Below, in pieces: positions 2,285 through 32,752 of a stretch of DNA of 33,335 bases (position 1 is the first letter of the stretch; every line of letters starts with the position of its first letter). Source of the DNA: Candidatus Uhrbacteria bacterium CG10_big_fil_rev_8_21_14_0_10_50_16. GTDB taxonomy: Bacteria > Patescibacteriota > Patescibacteriia > UBA9934 > UBA11717. The position numbers and the translations under genes are program-made. The stretch is from positions 72,645 to 105,979 of the forward strand of contig PCYM01000010.1 in the NCBI GenBank assembly GCA_002774875.1, in the 5' to 3' direction. Below the pieces are notes generated by a model. That model did not search any database and had not been told where the DNA came from. It was given only the letters and a program-made list of their open reading frames with translations.

Positions 2285-2312
2285 AAACACTATTGACAAA
2301 ATAGTGTTTTTT
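2285..2312 (+). terminator. recG terminator hairpin
   Basis: AAACACTAT pairs perfectly with ATAGTGTTT around a seven-base loop and runs into a T tract. The stem is AT-rich, so it may be a moderate terminator. The loop carries part of the TTGACA -35 box of the next gene, so the terminator and the promoter of the cassette overlap. Confidence 0.6.
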
Positions 2313-2321
2313 AGGTAAACA
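2293..2321 (+). promoter_or_regulatory. Consensus promoter of the 73-aa cassette gene
   Basis: TTGACA at 2293-2298 is followed by a 17-base spacer and TAAACA at 2316-2321. The same 17-base spacing recurs before every GC-rich accessory gene in the window. Confidence 0.55.
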
Positions 2322-2358
2322 GTGCGAGCTACATTCCGTGGCGATGAGAGGAGAGAAG

Positions 2359-2580
2359 ATGACGCAGCCGATTTACCTGATGGGCCTGCAGAACATGGCC
2401 GAACGTGATGTGCAGGAGGGGGATCAAGGGATCCGTGTGGTGTCCATGGCGCCGCGCGACGGGGTCCCTCGGGGTATCCTGGTCCTCCGTCACGCCGGAA
2501 CGCTCTACCGTGCGATCTTCCATGGTCGGTGTCCGTTACACGTACCCGATCGGCTCCCCGAAGGCCTCAAGCTGATCTGA
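2359..2580 (+). CDS. Small hypothetical protein, GC-rich cassette
   Basis: I do not recognise this 73-residue protein. It has no membrane segment or signal peptide and reads as a small, soluble, basic-acidic mixed polypeptide ending PEGLKLI. I chose the ATG at 2359 because GAGGAGA lies just upstream at proper distance; the earlier GTG at 2338 would place this ribosome site inside the gene. Its third codon positions are far richer in G and C than recG or radA on either side. It has its own promoter (2293-2321) and a strong terminator (2595-2642), so it forms a single-gene unit between convergent housekeeping genes. It may be a horizontally acquired gene; function unknown. Confidence 0.65.
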   Translation: MTQPIYLMGLQNMAERDVQEGDQGIRVVSMAPRDGVPRGILVLRHAGTLYRAIFHGRCPLHVPDRLPEGLKLI

Positions 2581-2594
2581 CGACCCCTGTAAAC

Positions 2595-2642
2595 AACAAG
2601 GACCCCTGCGGCCTTGTCGGTTTGCGGGGTCCTTGTTTTTTA
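2595..2642 (+). terminator. Rho-independent terminator after the 73-aa gene
   Basis: AACAAGGACCCC pairs perfectly with GGGGTCCTTGTT, twelve base pairs, followed by a run of T. On the other strand the same hairpin lies just beyond the end of the thymidylate synthase gene and may help end that operon, although its T tract there is poor. Confidence 0.9.
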
Positions 2643-19694: not shown

Positions 19695-20126
19695 TCAGGT
19701 GCGGGACAGCCTGAGCGGACGACGCATGCGCATCACGTGGATGTAGGCCCACCAGCCGATCTGCGGCAGATCCCATCCTGCAGAGGCTGCGCTGTTGTGG
19801 ACCATGACCGCCGCCTCTTGCGGCGCTGTGCCTCTCTCCAGCTCCCATCGCATCTCCTCCAGATACAGAACGGCCACCATCTTCTGGATCGCCCAGGGTG
19901 GCAGGTGTTCCTTCTTGTGCTGGAAGAAGCGACGTCCGGCCGCCTCTCCAAAGAAGGCTACGAGCGCCGTGCGTACCGCCTCGGCTGCCGAATCCAGACC
20001 GTGCGACTGGCGTTGGATGAGCTGTTGCTCCACTCCCGCGGGGGTGAAGGTGTAGAAGTTGTGAACGTAGGCGCTAATCGTCGTGGGCCCGTACGGAGCT
20101 CTGTGAATCTGTTCGAGCAGGCTCAT
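19695..20126 (-). CDS. Hypothetical protein, GC-rich cassette
   Basis: I do not recognise this 143-residue protein. It has no hydrophobic segment long enough for a membrane helix and shows helical stretches with many Ala, Glu, Arg and Gln (about 40-105). It ends with a very basic run, HVMRMRRPLRLSRT. A strong ribosome site (AAGGAG, three to six bases before the ATG) and a promoter (20173-20201) precede it. Its GC-rich codon choice contrasts with pheT and dnaE nearby. It is the first of three such genes in the 19630-21790 island. The terminator is not obvious: 19630-19690 holds GC-rich inverted segments but no clean hairpin. Confidence 0.65.
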   Translation of the reverse strand: MSLLEQIHRAPYGPTTISAYVHNFYTFTPAGVEQQLIQRQSHGLDSAAEAVRTALVAFFGEAAGRRFFQHKKEHLPPWAIQKMVAVLYLEEMRWELERGTAPQEAAVMVHNSAASAGWDLPQIGWWAYIHVMRMRRPLRLSRT

Positions 20127-20161
20127 GGGTACTCCTTACGGCTTGAGCCGCGTTGGTGGTT

Positions 20162-20202
20162 GTTTCAAAAACACCCTACACAAATCGTTGCGATAGGTCA
20201 AG
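20162..20202. repeat. Possible degenerate copy of the 36-nt palindrome
   Basis: The stretch starts GTTTCAAAAACACC, matching the left arm of the 36-nt element with one extra A, and goes on with ATCGTTGCGATA, which matches ATCGTCGCATA of copy 1 with one change and one extra base. The right arm is degraded. It overlaps the promoter of the 143-residue gene. The match is by eye and may be chance. Confidence 0.35.
20173..20201 (-). promoter_or_regulatory. Promoter of the 143-aa cassette gene
   Basis: On the minus strand TTGACC (20201-20196), a 17-base spacer and TAGGGT (20178-20173). The leader of about 40 bases ends in the AAGGAG ribosome site. Confidence 0.5.
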
Positions 20203-20243: not shown

Positions 20244-20281
20244 AGAAAAATTTCACCCCCAGCGCCGAGCGGCGTGGGGGT
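20244..20281 (-). terminator. Terminator of the 289-aa membrane protein gene
   Basis: On the minus strand ACCCCC, an inner CGCCG/CGGCG pair and GGGGGT form a 27-base GC-rich hairpin followed by GAAATTTTT. It starts five bases after the stop codon at 20286. Confidence 0.88.
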
Positions 20282-20285
20282 ATCG

Positions 20286-21155
20286 TCAGTTGGTGGAAGC
20301 CTCGATCTCCCGGACTCGACAATCGAGCTCGGCGAAGATCGTGTGATCGTCTGGTACGCGTTGATCTCGGAGCATGGTCCGGGCCATCTCCAGGAGATCG
20401 AGCGTTACCTCTGGTTCTTCTTGTGTGTGGCCAGTGAGCTGGTTCAAGAAGACCAGTATGGCGCGCTGCTTGAGGCTTTCGCTGACCTCGGTCAGAAGCA
20501 CGCAGGCAAGCAGTTGCACCATCCCAAACACAGTGCTCCCGATCAGGACTTCGTAGCTCTCCAGTGGATTCTCGTGGAACGGTTCCGCAGCGATGTCGAA
20601 CACCCGGTTCCAGGTAGACGCTCCGGTGTCGACCGAGCGCCCGAACTCCATGTAGCTCCCGTTTTCCACGAACAGCGGTTGCCCGTAATGGACGCGAGTA
20701 TGCCAGTTGGTCTCTCGGAGACGCTTACCCCCCTTGGGGCCCACGACTTCCATGATGCGAACAAACCCGTCGAACCCTCGCTCAAAGTGTGCAACCAGCG
20801 TCGCTTTGTTCTTGCTTTCCTCCAGGGTCTCGTTGTCGGAGAGCGGTTCGGGCGACCCGTGCTCGTGCGCGCTGTTCACCATGTCCGTCCAGACCGTCAT
20901 GTGCGCCACCGCACGCTTGGCATCGAGGTACTTCTTGAACGCCGGCTTGAGCCAGAACCAGACAACAGAAGACGCAAGAGTGGCGACCAGGAAACAGACG
21001 ATCCGAGCATCCGGGTAGGTCACCATGCCCCAGGAACTCACAATGAGCATAATCATGCTCGCCACTTCGCCCGCAAAGATCCAATAGAGGGTACTAAGCG
21101 AGGACCTCTTGAGGTTCTCACGTGTTTCCAAACATTTGTCGCAGTTGCGGTTCAC
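20286..21155 (-). CDS. Hypothetical membrane protein, GC-rich cassette
   Basis: The 289-residue protein is not one I recognise. I chose the GTG at 21155 because GGAGG lies four bases upstream; the longer frame to 21290 has only a TTG start and runs over the promoter. The N-terminus has a Cys pair in NCDKC, then two helices near residues 22-45 and 52-72, a large polar domain (about 80-225) and a further hydrophobic stretch (about 228-250, STVFGMVQLLACVLL). The polar middle would be a soluble domain. Its promoter (21187-21215) is divergent from that of the 138-residue gene. It has its own GC-rich terminator. Confidence 0.65.
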   Translation of the reverse strand: MNRNCDKCLETRENLKRSSLSTLYWIFAGEVASMIMLIVSSWGMVTYPDARIVCFLVATLASSVVWFWLKPAFKKYLDAKRAVAHMTVWTDMVNSAHEHGSPEPLSDNETLEESKNKATLVAHFERGFDGFVRIMEVVGPKGGKRLRETNWHTRVHYGQPLFVENGSYMEFGRSVDTGASTWNRVFDIAAEPFHENPLESYEVLIGSTVFGMVQLLACVLLTEVSESLKQRAILVFLNQLTGHTQEEPEVTLDLLEMARTMLRDQRVPDDHTIFAELDCRVREIEASTN

Positions 21156-21237: not shown

Positions 21238-21266
21238 TTGCAATAAACAGGGAAGTGCCGTAAAAA
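21238..21266 (+). promoter_or_regulatory. Promoter of the 138-aa cassette gene
   Basis: TTGCAA at 21238-21243, a 17-base spacer and TAAAAA at 21261-21266. The start site would leave a leader of about 30 bases carrying the TAGGAGG ribosome site. Confidence 0.5.
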
Positions 21267-21304
21267 GATAAGGGTAGTTGATCTTTGCAATTAGGAGGTG
21301 CCTC

Positions 21305-21721
21305 ATGACCAAGAAGAAGCCACGGAAGGTCCTGCCACTTACCGAGCAGGAACAGAGAAGGAAGAACCTGCTGGAGACGATCCGCTGGTTTGCGGATCAG
21401 CCCAGGCAATCATGGCAGGATCCGTTTGTCGTGGAGGAAGTCCGTGAGTTTGCGGATGGAGTCATGATTGTCCAAACATCCGACGGCAGGTTTACGATCT
21501 TCCTGAGCCTGGAGCGAATTCGTTTTGTGGAAGGTTTGTTCTTTCACCGAGCGAGTAGGAGAGTGGATCTGCCTGAAAATACCGGGTTGATCATGGCCAA
21601 GCCAACTCACAAAGCCTGGCAGGATGTTCTTGTCTACGCCAAGGAATCGCTGACCACATCTCAAGGGCCTGTTCCTTGGCATCCGTACGGGCTCTCAAGG
21701 CCAAGTGTTTTCACATGTTGA
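21305..21721 (+). CDS. Hypothetical protein, GC-rich cassette
   Basis: The 138-residue protein is unknown to me. A very basic N-terminus (TKKKPRK) is followed by a helical segment and a small beta-rich core (about 45-80, DGVMIVQTSDGRFTIFLSLERIRFVEG). No membrane segment is seen. The ATG at 21305 was chosen because the near-perfect ribosome site TAGGAGG lies seven bases before it; an upstream in-frame start at 21278 would cover that site. It is divergently arranged with the 289-residue gene, each with its own promoter. The terminator at 21757-21790 closes the three-gene GC-rich island. Confidence 0.65.
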   Translation: MTKKKPRKVLPLTEQEQRRKNLLETIRWFADQPRQSWQDPFVVEEVREFADGVMIVQTSDGRFTIFLSLERIRFVEGLFFHRASRRVDLPENTGLIMAKPTHKAWQDVLVYAKESLTTSQGPVPWHPYGLSRPSVFTC

Positions 21722-21756
21722 TCTCTAGAGAGGGCACGCGCCTTTTCTCCCACACA

Positions 21757-21790
21757 AGGGCGGCCCACTCCGGGGTCGCCTTCCTATTTT
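21757..21790 (+). terminator. Terminator of the 138-aa cassette gene
   Basis: AGGGCGGCCC pairs with GGGTCGCCTT-side bases (ten pairs, two of them G-T wobbles) around a six-base loop, followed by CCTATTTTATT. Confidence 0.7.
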
Positions 21791-28441: not shown

Positions 28442-28460
28442 AGCGACAACAAGTAAATAA

Positions 28461-28500
28461 AAACACGCAGCCCCGAACCAGTTGGTCGGGGCTGACGTCG
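28461..28500 (-). terminator. Terminator of the lytic transglycosylase cassette
   Basis: AGCCCCGA pairs with TCGGGGCT with inner CCA/TGG pairing, and on the minus strand GCGTGTTTTTATTTA follows. Its order of blocks (ACGTC, CCCCG, CCA, CTGG, CGGGG) is shared with the hairpin at 31925-31951. Confidence 0.9.
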
Positions 28501-28560
28501 TTTTGGATTTCTGCACTTGAAACGTGTGCAGAGACGTGCGCCCTCTACCATGGGGGAGAG

Positions 28561-29553
28561 CTATTTCGTCCCGTCGTTGCGGGGGTCCCATCCGGGGATA
28601 TCCTCGGGCTGGACTCGGTCCAGCCTCACCAAGGGCTCCCCCTTGAGCGCACGCGTCATCATGACCACGCACGCCAGGACTCGCGGGACGTACACCCGTG
28701 GCTTCATACCGCCGGTGTAGGCGAGCCACGGACGCAGGTCCGTGACGCTGGGGAGGCGCTTTCCGCGCTTCCACCCGGCCTCACGAGCGTCCCGGCGGAC
28801 GCCTCCCACCCCCTCGTTGTAGGCGAGGAGGCCATGGGCGCGACTGCCGAGCCTGCGCTCATAGTCGTCCAGCACCATGATCCCCACGAGCATGTTGTGC
28901 TCGGGGTTGGTCTTGTGTTCCATCGCCGTCATTGGCAGATGGAGCATGATGGCGGCCGGCCGCACGTGCCGGCTCACGCTGATGTTGGTGAGCTGCATCC
29001 AGCCGCGACCGCCCATGCGGTCCTTGGCGGCCATGTTGCAGCCCTCACTCTCATGCAGGGCGATGCCTGCAATGAGAGCGGCCGGGTAGAGCGTCATGCT
29101 CTCGGCCCGGCGGAACATCTCCATCTGCTGGAGGCAGCGCTCCGCGCCGGTCCTCCACGCCCCGTTTCCCACGTACGTGTTGTATTCCTCCAGTACGTGG
29201 GGGAGGATGTCTTTGCTAAATCCGCGGAGCTTGCTACGCTCCGCCCGCACCACCGCCACGTGACGCGGCTCGGTCGGGTTGACCACGGGGACGCGGATGT
29301 CCTCCATGGTGTCGCCCGACCAGTTGATGATCCTGGGTGTGGCCAGGATCGTGCCGCCGGCCACCATCGCCCATGCGGCGCCGGCGATCATACCGCGACG
29401 GAAGTCCGGAGACCTCCGCGCGGCGCTCCGTGTGGCGACCACGGTGTGGGACCAGGTCCACGACACCGCGATCACCAATCCGTATACGCCCAACTTGCTC
29501 ATCCGCCAGGCGAACGAGCCGAAGCGCTGCACCAGACCCAGGAATCGCTCCAT
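28561..29553 (-). CDS. Lytic transglycosylase-like protein, GC-rich cassette
   Basis: The protein should cut the glycan strands of peptidoglycan. In its 330 residues, two hydrophobic helices near 19-38 and 54-73 anchor it to the membrane. The SLT/lysozyme-like domain (about 150-260) has the catalytic Glu168 in ALHESEG, GWMQLT at 184-189 and AYNEG at 244-248, the three signatures of the family. It starts 8 bases after GGAGGA, with a consensus promoter (29622-29650) and a terminator (28461-28500). Its codons are strongly GC-rich compared with thrS and dnaE. Orientation and isolation match the other cassettes. It may serve cell-wall remodelling, export or attack on neighbouring cells; the catalytic call is firm, the role is not. 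Confidence 0.85.
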   Translation of the reverse strand: MERFLGLVQRFGSFAWRMSKLGVYGLVIAVSWTWSHTVVATRSAARRSPDFRRGMIAGAAWAMVAGGTILATPRIINWSGDTMEDIRVPVVNPTEPRHVAVVRAERSKLRGFSKDILPHVLEEYNTYVGNGAWRTGAERCLQQMEMFRRAESMTLYPAALIAGIALHESEGCNMAAKDRMGGRGWMQLTNISVSRHVRPAAIMLHLPMTAMEHKTNPEHNMLVGIMVLDDYERRLGSRAHGLLAYNEGVGGVRRDAREAGWKRGKRLPSVTDLRPWLAYTGGMKPRVYVPRVLACVVMMTRALKGEPLVRLDRVQPEDIPGWDPRNDGTK

Positions 29554-29621
29554 GGTGTCTCCTCCTTCTCAGTGGTGAATTGGCCCCGTTAAGCAAGCAA
29601 TTTGCCTATTGGGAACGTCCC

Positions 29622-29650
29622 TTTATACCACAAAAACAGCCTTTTGTCAA
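29622..29650 (-). promoter_or_regulatory. Consensus promoter of the lytic transglycosylase gene
   Basis: On the minus strand TTGACA (29650-29645), a 17-base spacer and TATAAA (29627-29622), the closest match to a sigma-70 consensus in the window. The leader is about 60 bases and ends with GGAGGA. Confidence 0.75.
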
Positions 29651-30131: not shown

Positions 30132-31883
30132 ATGAGTGATCAAAATCACTTGGACGCTCTGCGCCATTCTGCGGCCCACTTACTTGCCGCCGCCGTCTTG
30201 GAACTCTACCCAGACGCTAAGCGCACCATCGGTCCGTCTATCGAAAACGGGTTTTATTATGATTTTGAATTCTCGTCGCCCATTACGGACATGGATCTTA
30301 AGCGGATCGAGAAGCAGATGAAGAAAATCATCAACACGTGGGGTGAAGGATTCTCACATCGGAGCGTGACACCAGACGAGGCACGGGCTGAATACAAAAA
30401 TAATCCCTACAAGTTGGAGTTGGTCGATCAGTTTACGGGCGAGGGTCAGAACCTCACGTTTTACAAAGTAGGGAATTATGAGGATTTGTGTCGTGGTGGG
30501 CATTGTGAGCATCCAAAGGAAGAACTCAAGCACTTTAAACTTATGTCGCTGGCGGGTGCCTATTGGCGAGGAGACGAAAAAAATGCCATGCTGACACGCA
30601 TTTATGGCACCGCGTTTGCCACGCAGGAAGCATTGGACGCGTACCTACACATGTTGGAGGAGGCAAAAAAACGAGATCACAGAAAGCTTGGAAAAGAGTT
30701 GGGGCTGTTTGCCTTTTCTGATCTCGTGGGGCCCGGTCTCCCCTTATTTACGCCAAAAGGAGCAACGATTCGCCGTTTGTTGGAGGATTACGTGTGGGAC
30801 CTCATGCGACCATTTGGGTACGAGCGCGTGGATATTCCTCACATGGCCAAGGCGGACTTGTATAAAACAAGCGGTCATTGGGACAAGTTTACGGACGATA
30901 TTTTCCATGTGAGCAGTAAAAAATCGGACGAGCAGTTTGTCATGAAGCCGATGAACTGCCCGCATCACACGCAGATTTACGCAAGCGAACAGAGATCCTA
31001 CAGAGACCTTCCTCTCCGATTTTCCGAGGTTACCAAAGTGTACAGGGACGAGAACACGGGGCAGTTGCAAGGGTTGTCTCGCGTGCGATCCATTACACAG
31101 GATGATGCACACGTGTTTTGCCGCATAGATCAAGTCAAAGATGAGGCGCGAGCCATTTATCAGATCGTTCAAGCGTTCTATAAGACATTCAACATGCCAT
31201 TGGACGCGCGATTGTCCTTGTCCGATCCAAGCCAGCCGGATAAGTACCTCGGTGAGCGATCCGTTTGGGAGACATCGGAGGGGATGTTGCGAGAGCTATT
31301 ACAGGAGTTTGGTGTGGCATTTGAAGAGGTACAAGGTGAGGCGGCGTTTTATGGTCCTAAGATCGACTTTGTGGCTAAGGATGCGATCGGCCGTCCGTGG
31401 CAGCTAGCAACGATTCAACTCGACTTTAATTTGCCAGAGCGATTCCAGTTGGAATACGTAGATGAACACGGCGAGAAGGTGCGGCCAGTAATGGTGCATC
31501 GCGCCATCTCGGGATCACTTGAGCGGTTCATGGGCGTGTTGATTGAACATTATGCGGGAGCGTTTCCGTTGTGGATTGCGCCTGTACAAGTGCGCGTGGC
31601 AAGCGTCAGTGAGGTGCATAAAGATGCGGTGAGCCAGCTTGTGCGTGATCTTAAAGCCGCGGGTGTGCGAGCCGAGGCAGATGTGTCCGATGCTACGGTG
31701 GGCGCCAAGATTCGTAACGCTTCCAAGATGAAGATTCCCTATACCATTATTTTTGGAGATAAGGAGTTAGGTGGGGAGGCGTTCCACGTGCGCGTGTTTG
31801 GAGAAGAGGAGGAACAGGTGATAGATCAAACCTCTTTGGCGGAACAGATTCTCAAAACGTCCAAAGAACAGCGGGGCGTGTAA
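30132..31883 (+). CDS. thrS: Threonine-tRNA ligase lacking the TGS domain
   Basis: ThrS charges tRNA-Thr. The 583 residues start directly with the editing domain: HSAAH (about 12-16) and CRGGH near residue 120 supply the HxxxH and CxxxH metal and editing residues. The N-terminal TGS domain of about 60 residues found in E. coli ThrRS is absent. The class II core has MNCPHH (zinc Cys), DDAHVF (zinc His) and VMVHRAISGSLERF (zinc His and motif 3). The C-terminal anticodon-binding domain covers about 480-575. The ATG at 30132 lies directly after the T-box leader terminator. Regulation by tRNA-Thr charging is inferred from that leader. Confidence 0.97.
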   Translation: MSDQNHLDALRHSAAHLLAAAVLELYPDAKRTIGPSIENGFYYDFEFSSPITDMDLKRIEKQMKKIINTWGEGFSHRSVTPDEARAEYKNNPYKLELVDQFTGEGQNLTFYKVGNYEDLCRGGHCEHPKEELKHFKLMSLAGAYWRGDEKNAMLTRIYGTAFATQEALDAYLHMLEEAKKRDHRKLGKELGLFAFSDLVGPGLPLFTPKGATIRRLLEDYVWDLMRPFGYERVDIPHMAKADLYKTSGHWDKFTDDIFHVSSKKSDEQFVMKPMNCPHHTQIYASEQRSYRDLPLRFSEVTKVYRDENTGQLQGLSRVRSITQDDAHVFCRIDQVKDEARAIYQIVQAFYKTFNMPLDARLSLSDPSQPDKYLGERSVWETSEGMLRELLQEFGVAFEEVQGEAAFYGPKIDFVAKDAIGRPWQLATIQLDFNLPERFQLEYVDEHGEKVRPVMVHRAISGSLERFMGVLIEHYAGAFPLWIAPVQVRVASVSEVHKDAVSQLVRDLKAAGVRAEADVSDATVGAKIRNASKMKIPYTIIFGDKELGGEAFHVRVFGEEEEQVIDQTSLAEQILKTSKEQRGV

Positions 31884-31924
31884 AGGAACAAAAGTTGAAT
31901 ACAAAAAAATATAGGAGAAACGAA

Positions 31925-31951
31925 GACCCCGGAGCCAGCTGGCCCGGGGTC
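31925..31951 (-). terminator. Terminator of the 214-aa cassette gene
   Basis: GACCCCGG pairs with CCGGGGTC with an inner GCCAGCTGGC palindrome, followed on the minus strand by TTCGTTTCTCCTATATTTTTTT. It can also serve thrS from the other side, though the T tract there is poor. Confidence 0.88.
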
Positions 31952-31989
31952 GACGTGTGTTTGGGTTGGTGCGGGATCTGGTCGCAGCT

Positions 31990-32634
31990 CTAGCTGTTTG
32001 CGATCCCGATCATGTTGACGAGGGCGCGCAGGTCCGGTCCGAGGAGCTCCCGAATCGGATCGGACAGCGCATGACCCGGGGTGCGCTCGATGTAGCGCAG
32101 ACCGCACTGCATCCTCATGAGCATCGCCATCTCCTCCTTCGTGATCTCGCTTACGCGGATCTGGTATCGACCCACAATCAGGTAGACGTAGAGGAATTGA
32201 ACCTCTAGCTCGATCCGCGCCGCGCCGATGGACCCAGAGTGGATGAACTCATTATTCGTGTAGTTGATGACCTTGTCGATCATCCCAATCGCTACGGAGT
32301 ACGCCTCGTCCCTCAGAGGGACGAGGATTCGCAAGAGGTCCCACAGCGGTTCCGCGTGGGTCTTGATCGCGGAGCGGTGGGCGGGATTGCGGAAGTCGGC
32401 GGTTCGCAGGCCGCTGATCACAATCTCCAGCTGCGACAGGGCAAGGATGACGGCCTGGCGCTTGATGCGCATCATCTCTTGGCGCAGGTTGAGAGCGCGG
32501 TCGGCGACCGAGGTGGGGCCGTTGGCCTTCTGACGTCCCGGCCACAGCTTGAAGGTGTAGTAGCCCCCCATGGACATGATGATCATGGGGATCCAGTGCT
32601 TGTTTAACCATTCGAAGATATCGGACCAGCTCAT
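31990..32634 (-). CDS. Hypothetical membrane protein, GC-rich cassette
   Basis: The 214-residue protein is unknown to me. One N-terminal helix (about 10-30, HWIPMIIMSMGGYYTFKLW) is followed by a mostly helical soluble part with a basic stretch after the membrane. I chose the ATG at 32634 because GAAGGAG lies five bases upstream; the GTG one codon earlier is possible. Its promoter is TTGACA, 17 bases, TATCTA at 32752-32724, and a GC-rich terminator follows. Codon choice is GC-rich as in the other cassettes. It lies between thrS and the gene that runs off the right edge. Confidence 0.65.
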   Translation of the reverse strand: MSWSDIFEWLNKHWIPMIIMSMGGYYTFKLWPGRQKANGPTSVADRALNLRQEMMRIKRQAVILALSQLEIVISGLRTADFRNPAHRSAIKTHAEPLWDLLRILVPLRDEAYSVAIGMIDKVINYTNNEFIHSGSIGAARIELEVQFLYVYLIVGRYQIRVSEITKEEMAMLMRMQCGLRYIERTPGHALSDPIRELLGPDLRALVNMIGIANS

Positions 32635-32723
32635 CACAGACTCCTTCGGGACGCACCCGATGGTGGGGACGCACCCCTAGTGTCTTCTCACGCGCAGACG
32701 ATTTTCTGCCGCAAGTTGCGTTA

Positions 32724-32752
32724 TAGATACATGTTCGAGCATCTTTTGTCAA
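32724..32752 (-). promoter_or_regulatory. Consensus promoter of the 214-aa cassette gene
   Basis: On the minus strand TTGACA (32752-32747), a 17-base spacer and TATCTA (32729-32724). The predicted leader is about 80 bases long and GC-rich near its end. Confidence 0.65.

Follow-up and report, generated by a model that had tools for sequence, protein, structure and literature searches.

What makes six single genes in one stretch of an Uhrbacterium genome look alike, and does that likeness mark a class with a history and a role of its own? The organism is a tiny bacterium, probably symbiotic, whose assembled genome (G000) comprises 896 kb in 10 contigs. The window, by which we mean the whole stretch of 33,335 nucleotides that was analysed, is G000:C10:72645-105979. 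The initial annotation described six self-contained, GC-rich single-gene cassettes, each with its own ribosome site and promoter and most with a terminator, and took them for one acquired or lineage-specific class, possibly moved as single units. We compared them with the rest of the genome, with the congener G001 (Candidatus Uhrbacteria UBA11717) and with other members of the order. Their features are as follows.

2293..2321, plus strand: promoter TTGACA-17-TAAACA of gene 2359, with the TTGACA kept in the congener G001
2349..2353, plus strand: ribosome site AGGAG of gene 2359
2359..2580, plus strand: gene 2359, rich-class orphan, 73 aa, GC3 0.73
2582..2639, plus strand: intrinsic terminator of gene 2359, -27.6 kcal/mol
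19695..20126, minus strand: gene 19695, rich-class orphan, 143 aa, GC3 0.76
20132..20138, minus strand: ribosome site TAAGGAG of gene 19695
20173..20201, minus strand: promoter-like TTGACC-17-TAGGGT of gene 19695
20246..20282, minus strand: intrinsic terminator of gene 20286, -21.4 kcal/mol
20286..21026, minus strand: gene 20286, rich class, 246 aa from ATG 21026, GC3 0.75; start uncertain, as the ORF extends to 21290
21238..21266, plus strand: weak promoter-like TTGCAA-17-TAAAAA of gene 21305
21293..21298, plus strand: ribosome site AGGAGG of gene 21305
21305..21721, plus strand: gene 21305, single gene, ribosome site and terminator present, core-like GC3 0.60
21727..21790, plus strand: intrinsic terminator of gene 21305, -29.5 kcal/mol
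28452..28504, minus strand: intrinsic terminator of transglycosylase gene 28561, nearly identical in G001
28561..29553, minus strand: gene 28561, rich-class lytic transglycosylase, 330 aa, GC3 0.87, SLT domain and N-terminal hydrophobic segments
29561..29567, minus strand: ribosome site AAGGAGG of gene 28561
29622..29650, minus strand: promoter TTGACA-17-TATAAA of gene 28561
31913..31955, minus strand: intrinsic terminator of gene 31990, -24.3 kcal/mol
31990..32634, minus strand: gene 31990, rich-class orphan, 214 aa, GC3 0.85
32641..32646, minus strand: ribosome site AAGGAG of gene 31990
32724..32752, minus strand: promoter TTGACA-17-TATCTA of gene 31990

Within the window, the common build holds for most of the six but not for all. 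Five of them have GC3 values (0.70-0.87) above those of all 23 other genes (0.37-0.60), the lowest being gene 20286, at 0.70 over its full ORF; gene 21305, at 0.60, does not share the high GC3 ascribed to it. The AGGAG-type ribosome site is present in genes 2359, 19695, 21305, 28561 and 31990, and none is convincing in 20286. Strong hairpins followed by a T-run (-21 to -30 kcal/mol) end five genes, as had been claimed, the exception being 19695. A perfect TTGACA precedes genes 2359, 28561 and 31990, and one with a single mismatch precedes 19695; the matches at 20286 and 21305 are weak, and several -10 boxes in the window agree with the consensus at just three of six positions, so that finding a spacer of exactly 17 nt at every one of the six genes, as reported, depends in part on which boxes are chosen. 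Gene 21305 is the least secure member of the class, and 20286 also fits less well.

The difference in coding style extends well beyond the window. A two-model codon gene caller, written for this analysis, was run on the window and on other stretches of the genome, and in the resulting sample of 537 kb, about 60% of the genome, GC3 was sharply bimodal. About 395 genes lay below 0.62 and 52 at 0.66-0.97, and in a 412-gene set almost none fell between 0.62 and 0.70. The 395 genes with GC3 <0.62 and the 52 with GC3 >=0.66 are referred to here as core and rich genes, and the rich class makes up about 10% of the genes in this genome. A close co-directional upstream gene is missing for 42 of 46 rich genes, which are thus nearly always monocistronic. 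Ribosomal-protein genes have a GC3 of 0.34-0.56, make the opposite codon choice and avoid rich-class codons. The rich style is therefore not the one this cell uses for high expression; it sets rich genes apart from the bulk as well as from highly expressed genes. GC1 and GC2 are also raised in rich genes, and lysine is halved. Ahead of the -35 boxes of rich genes, GC is core-like at 0.43, and in the leaders it is 0.54; as the upstream flanks are not GC-rich, local GC-biased conversion is disfavoured. Four rich genes start 128-148 nt from a tRNA gene (L051, L053, L012, L021); insertion beside tRNA genes was nevertheless rejected as a general rule, since the overall enrichment is not significant.

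The two classes also differ in the signals in front of their start codons. When start codons were picked with no credit given for a ribosome site, an SD motif was found upstream of 22 of 49 rich genes (45%) compared with 9 of 381 core genes (2%; p=1.2e-16), in agreement with the initial annotation, which had noted that core genes lack such sites. TTGACA precedes 20 of 49 rich genes (41%) and 20 of 192 core genes that come first in their operon (10%; p=3e-6), and the 17-nt spacer, whatever its standing in the weaker window promoters, is present in 15 of 17 strong rich-class promoters genome-wide. A -10 box lying 4-10 nt before the start codon is the mark of a leaderless message. Such a box was found in 57 of 192 core first genes, where about 15 were expected from control positions, and in 1 of 49 rich genes. 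Genes 190, 14654 and 22680 are leaderless-looking core first genes within the window. The first genes of core operons therefore look leaderless and the rich genes appear SD-led, which would amount to two initiation modes split by gene class within one reduced genome. An organism whose own 16S had lost the anti-SD was considered and rejected, since CACCTCC is present.

Uniformity of build recurs not only genome-wide but across the order. Median GC3 of the rich genes is 0.69-0.89 in Uhrbacteria genomes whose core medians are 0.31-0.67, the two classes being present even at core values of 0.31-0.39, with excess SD motifs in most; these medians are rough, since some samples span only 20-40 kb and the cut-off tracks the core median. 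Two genomes whose gene calls looked unreliable (G222, G023) were excluded. In other orders of the class Patescibacteriia, rich genes numbered none in G034, none in G066 and one in G033. Rich genes are located at operon borders, and the rich gene that occupies an equivalent junction (around dnaE; recG/2649) varies from genus to genus. Between genomes, rich sets correlate at 0.95-0.98, but a shared fine codon dialect was rejected: this correlation stems from picking GC-rich genes, and the ratios of C- to G-ending codons show no consistent agreement.

Comparison with the congener points to gain and loss of single units. Of nine testable rich genes, five are in place in G001 and four are missing, compared with 93 in place and 14 missing among 107 core genes; the five in place imply that many rich genes are not recent arrivals in the congener. 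Gene 2359 has an orthologue at the same recG/2649 junction (53% amino acid identity, GC3 0.89), and 20286, whose product bears a weak likeness to Pfam 8xMP, has one with 76% identity. The protein of 19695 is 99% and 94% identical to two G001 pieces and has no counterpart in the other relatives searched. The genes are thus not conserved in place across all relatives, the clearest case being 31990, which has no relative in 29 other genomes and whose site in G001 is empty: there thrS is separated from the following gene by 93 nt, and the neighbour's terminator is intact. At this one empty site no transposase, target duplication, terminal repeats or attC-like element was seen. Genes 20286 and 31990 had no match in IMG/VR in a scan reaching close relatives, and no donor or vehicle was found, the scan of genome contigs likewise reaching close relatives. 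The empty site shows directly the gain or loss of a single unit, in line with the initial proposal, and an acquisition from outside the lineage has no donor to point to.

Sequence divergence between the two congeners differs markedly by class. Fourfold sites differ at 57% in core genes and at 19% in rich orthologues; the median pS and pN/pS are 0.71 and 0.14 for core genes and 0.23 and 0.55 for rich genes (n=7 rich; p=1e-6 for pN/pS). Near-identical tracts cover 30% of the aligned bases in rich genes compared with 5.5% in core genes (p=0.002). Tracts of this kind, 100-800 nt long, occur at window positions 30651-31360 and at other loci amid synonymously saturated core sequence, thrS included, and probably reflect short-tract recombination between species. 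The divergence data fit recombination, fast protein change and possibly synonymous constraint, among which 7-9 pairs do not discriminate.

The transglycosylase is the sole rich family of the window that is found widely, and it spans two families of the order. Its SLT domain (PF01464) scores 46 bits against a cut-off of 21.3 (E 4.6e-12). The gene occupies the same site in G001 and adjoins mreB in two genomes of that family; in another family it stands next to ychF in three genera, and in a fourth genome a different core gene is its neighbour, the names mreB and ychF being our reading of the neighbours' sequences. Its GC3 is 0.66-0.87 throughout, though that of ychF itself is 0.32-0.53, and identity falls to 25-47% inside the order. 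Judged from these sequences, the family has evidently diversified within Uhrbacteria while remaining GC-rich. Its tree is partly resolved and groups G020 with G027, apart from G007, which belongs to the same genus as G027; this mixing of genera suggests some horizontal movement. The alignment of the G000 and G001 genes is a mosaic in which hundreds of near-identical bases, the terminator included, lie amid diverged stretches. No match was found in plasmids, phages or IMG/VR, the viral scan reaching close relatives.

Most rich proteins are shorter than 200 aa and belong to no Pfam family. Those with domains include the SLT transglycosylase, an M23 peptidase, a fusion of sigma-70 region 4 with alpha-CTD, and a possible response regulator, and lipoprotein signals are found in 5.6% of rich compared with 0.4% of core proteins. 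The fusion is a 453-aa protein joining sigma-70 region 4 to an RNA polymerase alpha C-terminal domain (L015:260-1621, G000 contig 5), with a partial relative in G001. Large lipoproteins carrying MopE-type metal-binding repeats (PF11617), as many as 16 of them, occur in G000 (L072:13393-16467, contig 3; GC3 0.91), G014 (L041) and G027 (L071), and the MopE-repeat and Asp-rich lipoproteins resemble those of other Gram-negative bacteria. Two secreted rich proteins (L054:4800-5405, L018:4539-5936) resemble outer-membrane barrels by eye; searches for domains and solved structures gave no support to this reading, and Omp85 is absent from 13 Uhrbacteria. Single-sequence structure predictions were poor for both 31990 (pLDDT 55) and 19695 (pLDDT 52). 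The idea that the lipoprotein machinery is missing was rejected, as Lgt was found in 21 of 21 genomes and LspA in 20 of 21.

Taken together, the evidence supports the initial interpretation of a uniform cassette class, and we consider its best explanation to be a pool of accessory genes, each a self-contained unit, that recombines and extends through the order, with partner and surface functions likely enriched (rough probability 0.55). Against this stand the lack of any donor or vehicle in the scans, the five of nine testable rich genes that are in place in the congener, the near-identical tracts in core genes, and the small number of orthologues (7-9). Placed at a core-operon border, a unit would bring its own sigma-70-type promoter (17-nt spacer), SD leader, GC-rich frame and, in most cases, intrinsic terminator, and would therefore work wherever it is inserted. 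Uhrbacteria would take up DNA from one another and, through recombination, acquire, lose and exchange such units; the GC-rich style would persist over long times, either because GC-rich partners keep renewing it or because selection maintains it. Many products (transglycosylase, M23 peptidase, MopE-repeat and other lipoproteins, the sigma-alpha fusion) would act on the envelope or on a partner cell; the function of the class, as read from its domain-bearing minority, may perhaps be to deal with such a partner. It is unlikely, though the strongest of the alternatives, that the rich genes are instead recent, unadapted imports from GC-rich neighbours or hosts, one gene each, with GC3 declining with age and a uniform build arising because only fragments that bring a promoter, ribosome site and terminator function. 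Raised GC1 and GC2 alongside GC3 and halved lysine are expected of genes from a GC-rich genome, the GC3 of the class is heterogeneous (0.66-0.97), the MopE-repeat and Asp-rich lipoproteins are like those of other Gram-negatives, and individually transferred Patescibacteria genes are reported in PMC12455944. Import without adaptation accounts for the raised GC1-GC3, but not for the long residence in AT-richer genomes of a transglycosylase that is still GC-rich beside ychF after such divergence; the core-like GC upstream of the -35 boxes and the lack of Pfam families for most members also speak against it.

Selection for translation under other conditions, whether inside a partner or during a distinct life phase, would account for that persistence. 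In the bolder version, which we regard as doubtful, some ninety one-gene cassettes, as DNA or as messages, would move into a GC-rich bacterial partner and be read by its polymerase and ribosomes, their signals and codons being tuned to it, as a bacterial counterpart of T-DNA. The decoupling of the style from genome composition across the order, its unlikeness to the style of the cell's ribosomal-protein genes, the distinct initiation mode, the one-gene units, the sigma-alpha fusion and the barrel-like proteins in the absence of Omp85 would all suit such a system. However, no transfer machinery, border or delivery route was identified, the barrel reading lacks database support, and C- versus G-ending codon preferences are not common to the rich sets of different genomes; with a normal anti-SD, Lgt and LspA, the cell could use the rich genes itself. 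Native genes for a particular phase such as attachment, in which a second translation regime favours SD-led, GC-rich messages, would explain two initiation modes in one genome and the enrichment in lipoproteins and wall enzymes, but leave the sporadic presence and the raised GC1 and GC2 unaccounted for, and we hold this to be less probable still. Strong promoters and ribosome sites might also suggest native genes whose codons are optimised for high expression, or an artefact of the caller or of contamination. We give these very little credence, since ribosomal-protein genes have lower GC3 and opposite codons, the cassettes lie inside contigs amid core genes, the same build recurs in independent genomes, and the SD excess persists without an SD bonus in start choice.

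To our knowledge, hosts and host-directed genes are unknown for most Patescibacteria. A signature that combines the GC3 residual, the SD motif and the 17-nt promoter against a leaderless-looking core yields a list of candidate symbiosis genes for an uncultured order, a fast-evolving class of about 10% of all genes, and makes the proposal that they are read in a partner testable. The composition of the rich class is possibly also a clue to the identity of that partner.

In the part of the literature searched, such a class was not found described. The available part of PMC12455944 reports single genes exchanged mostly among Patescibacteria, the transfers being inferred from donor-recipient similarity; single-gene exchange is its common point with the rich class, and within that part no GC-rich SD-led class is described and Uhrbacteria are not named. 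Prophages and plasmids offer no ready parallel, as three of the proteins had no viral homologues (in a viral scan reaching close relatives) and the transglycosylase had none in plasmids or phages either, and nothing at the one empty site, that of 31990, resembled a transposon or island. Integron cassettes are likewise one-gene orphan units gained and lost singly, but they are usually promoterless and stand in arrays at attI, whereas rich genes are scattered and carry their own promoters, with no promoterless attI/attC array. Agrobacterium T-DNA shares with the host-directed proposal that bacterial genes bear another cell's expression signals and codons, there those of plant genes, and differs in that for the rich genes neither transfer machinery nor a border was identified. 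The horizontally acquired class III codon-usage genes of E. coli are AT-rich, lie clustered in islands and phages, and include many with surface functions. Like them, the rich genes are a sporadic minority class with likely surface functions and with codons unlike those of the bulk and of highly expressed genes; unlike them, they are GC-rich single-gene units, initiated differently from a leaderless-looking core, and found order-wide.
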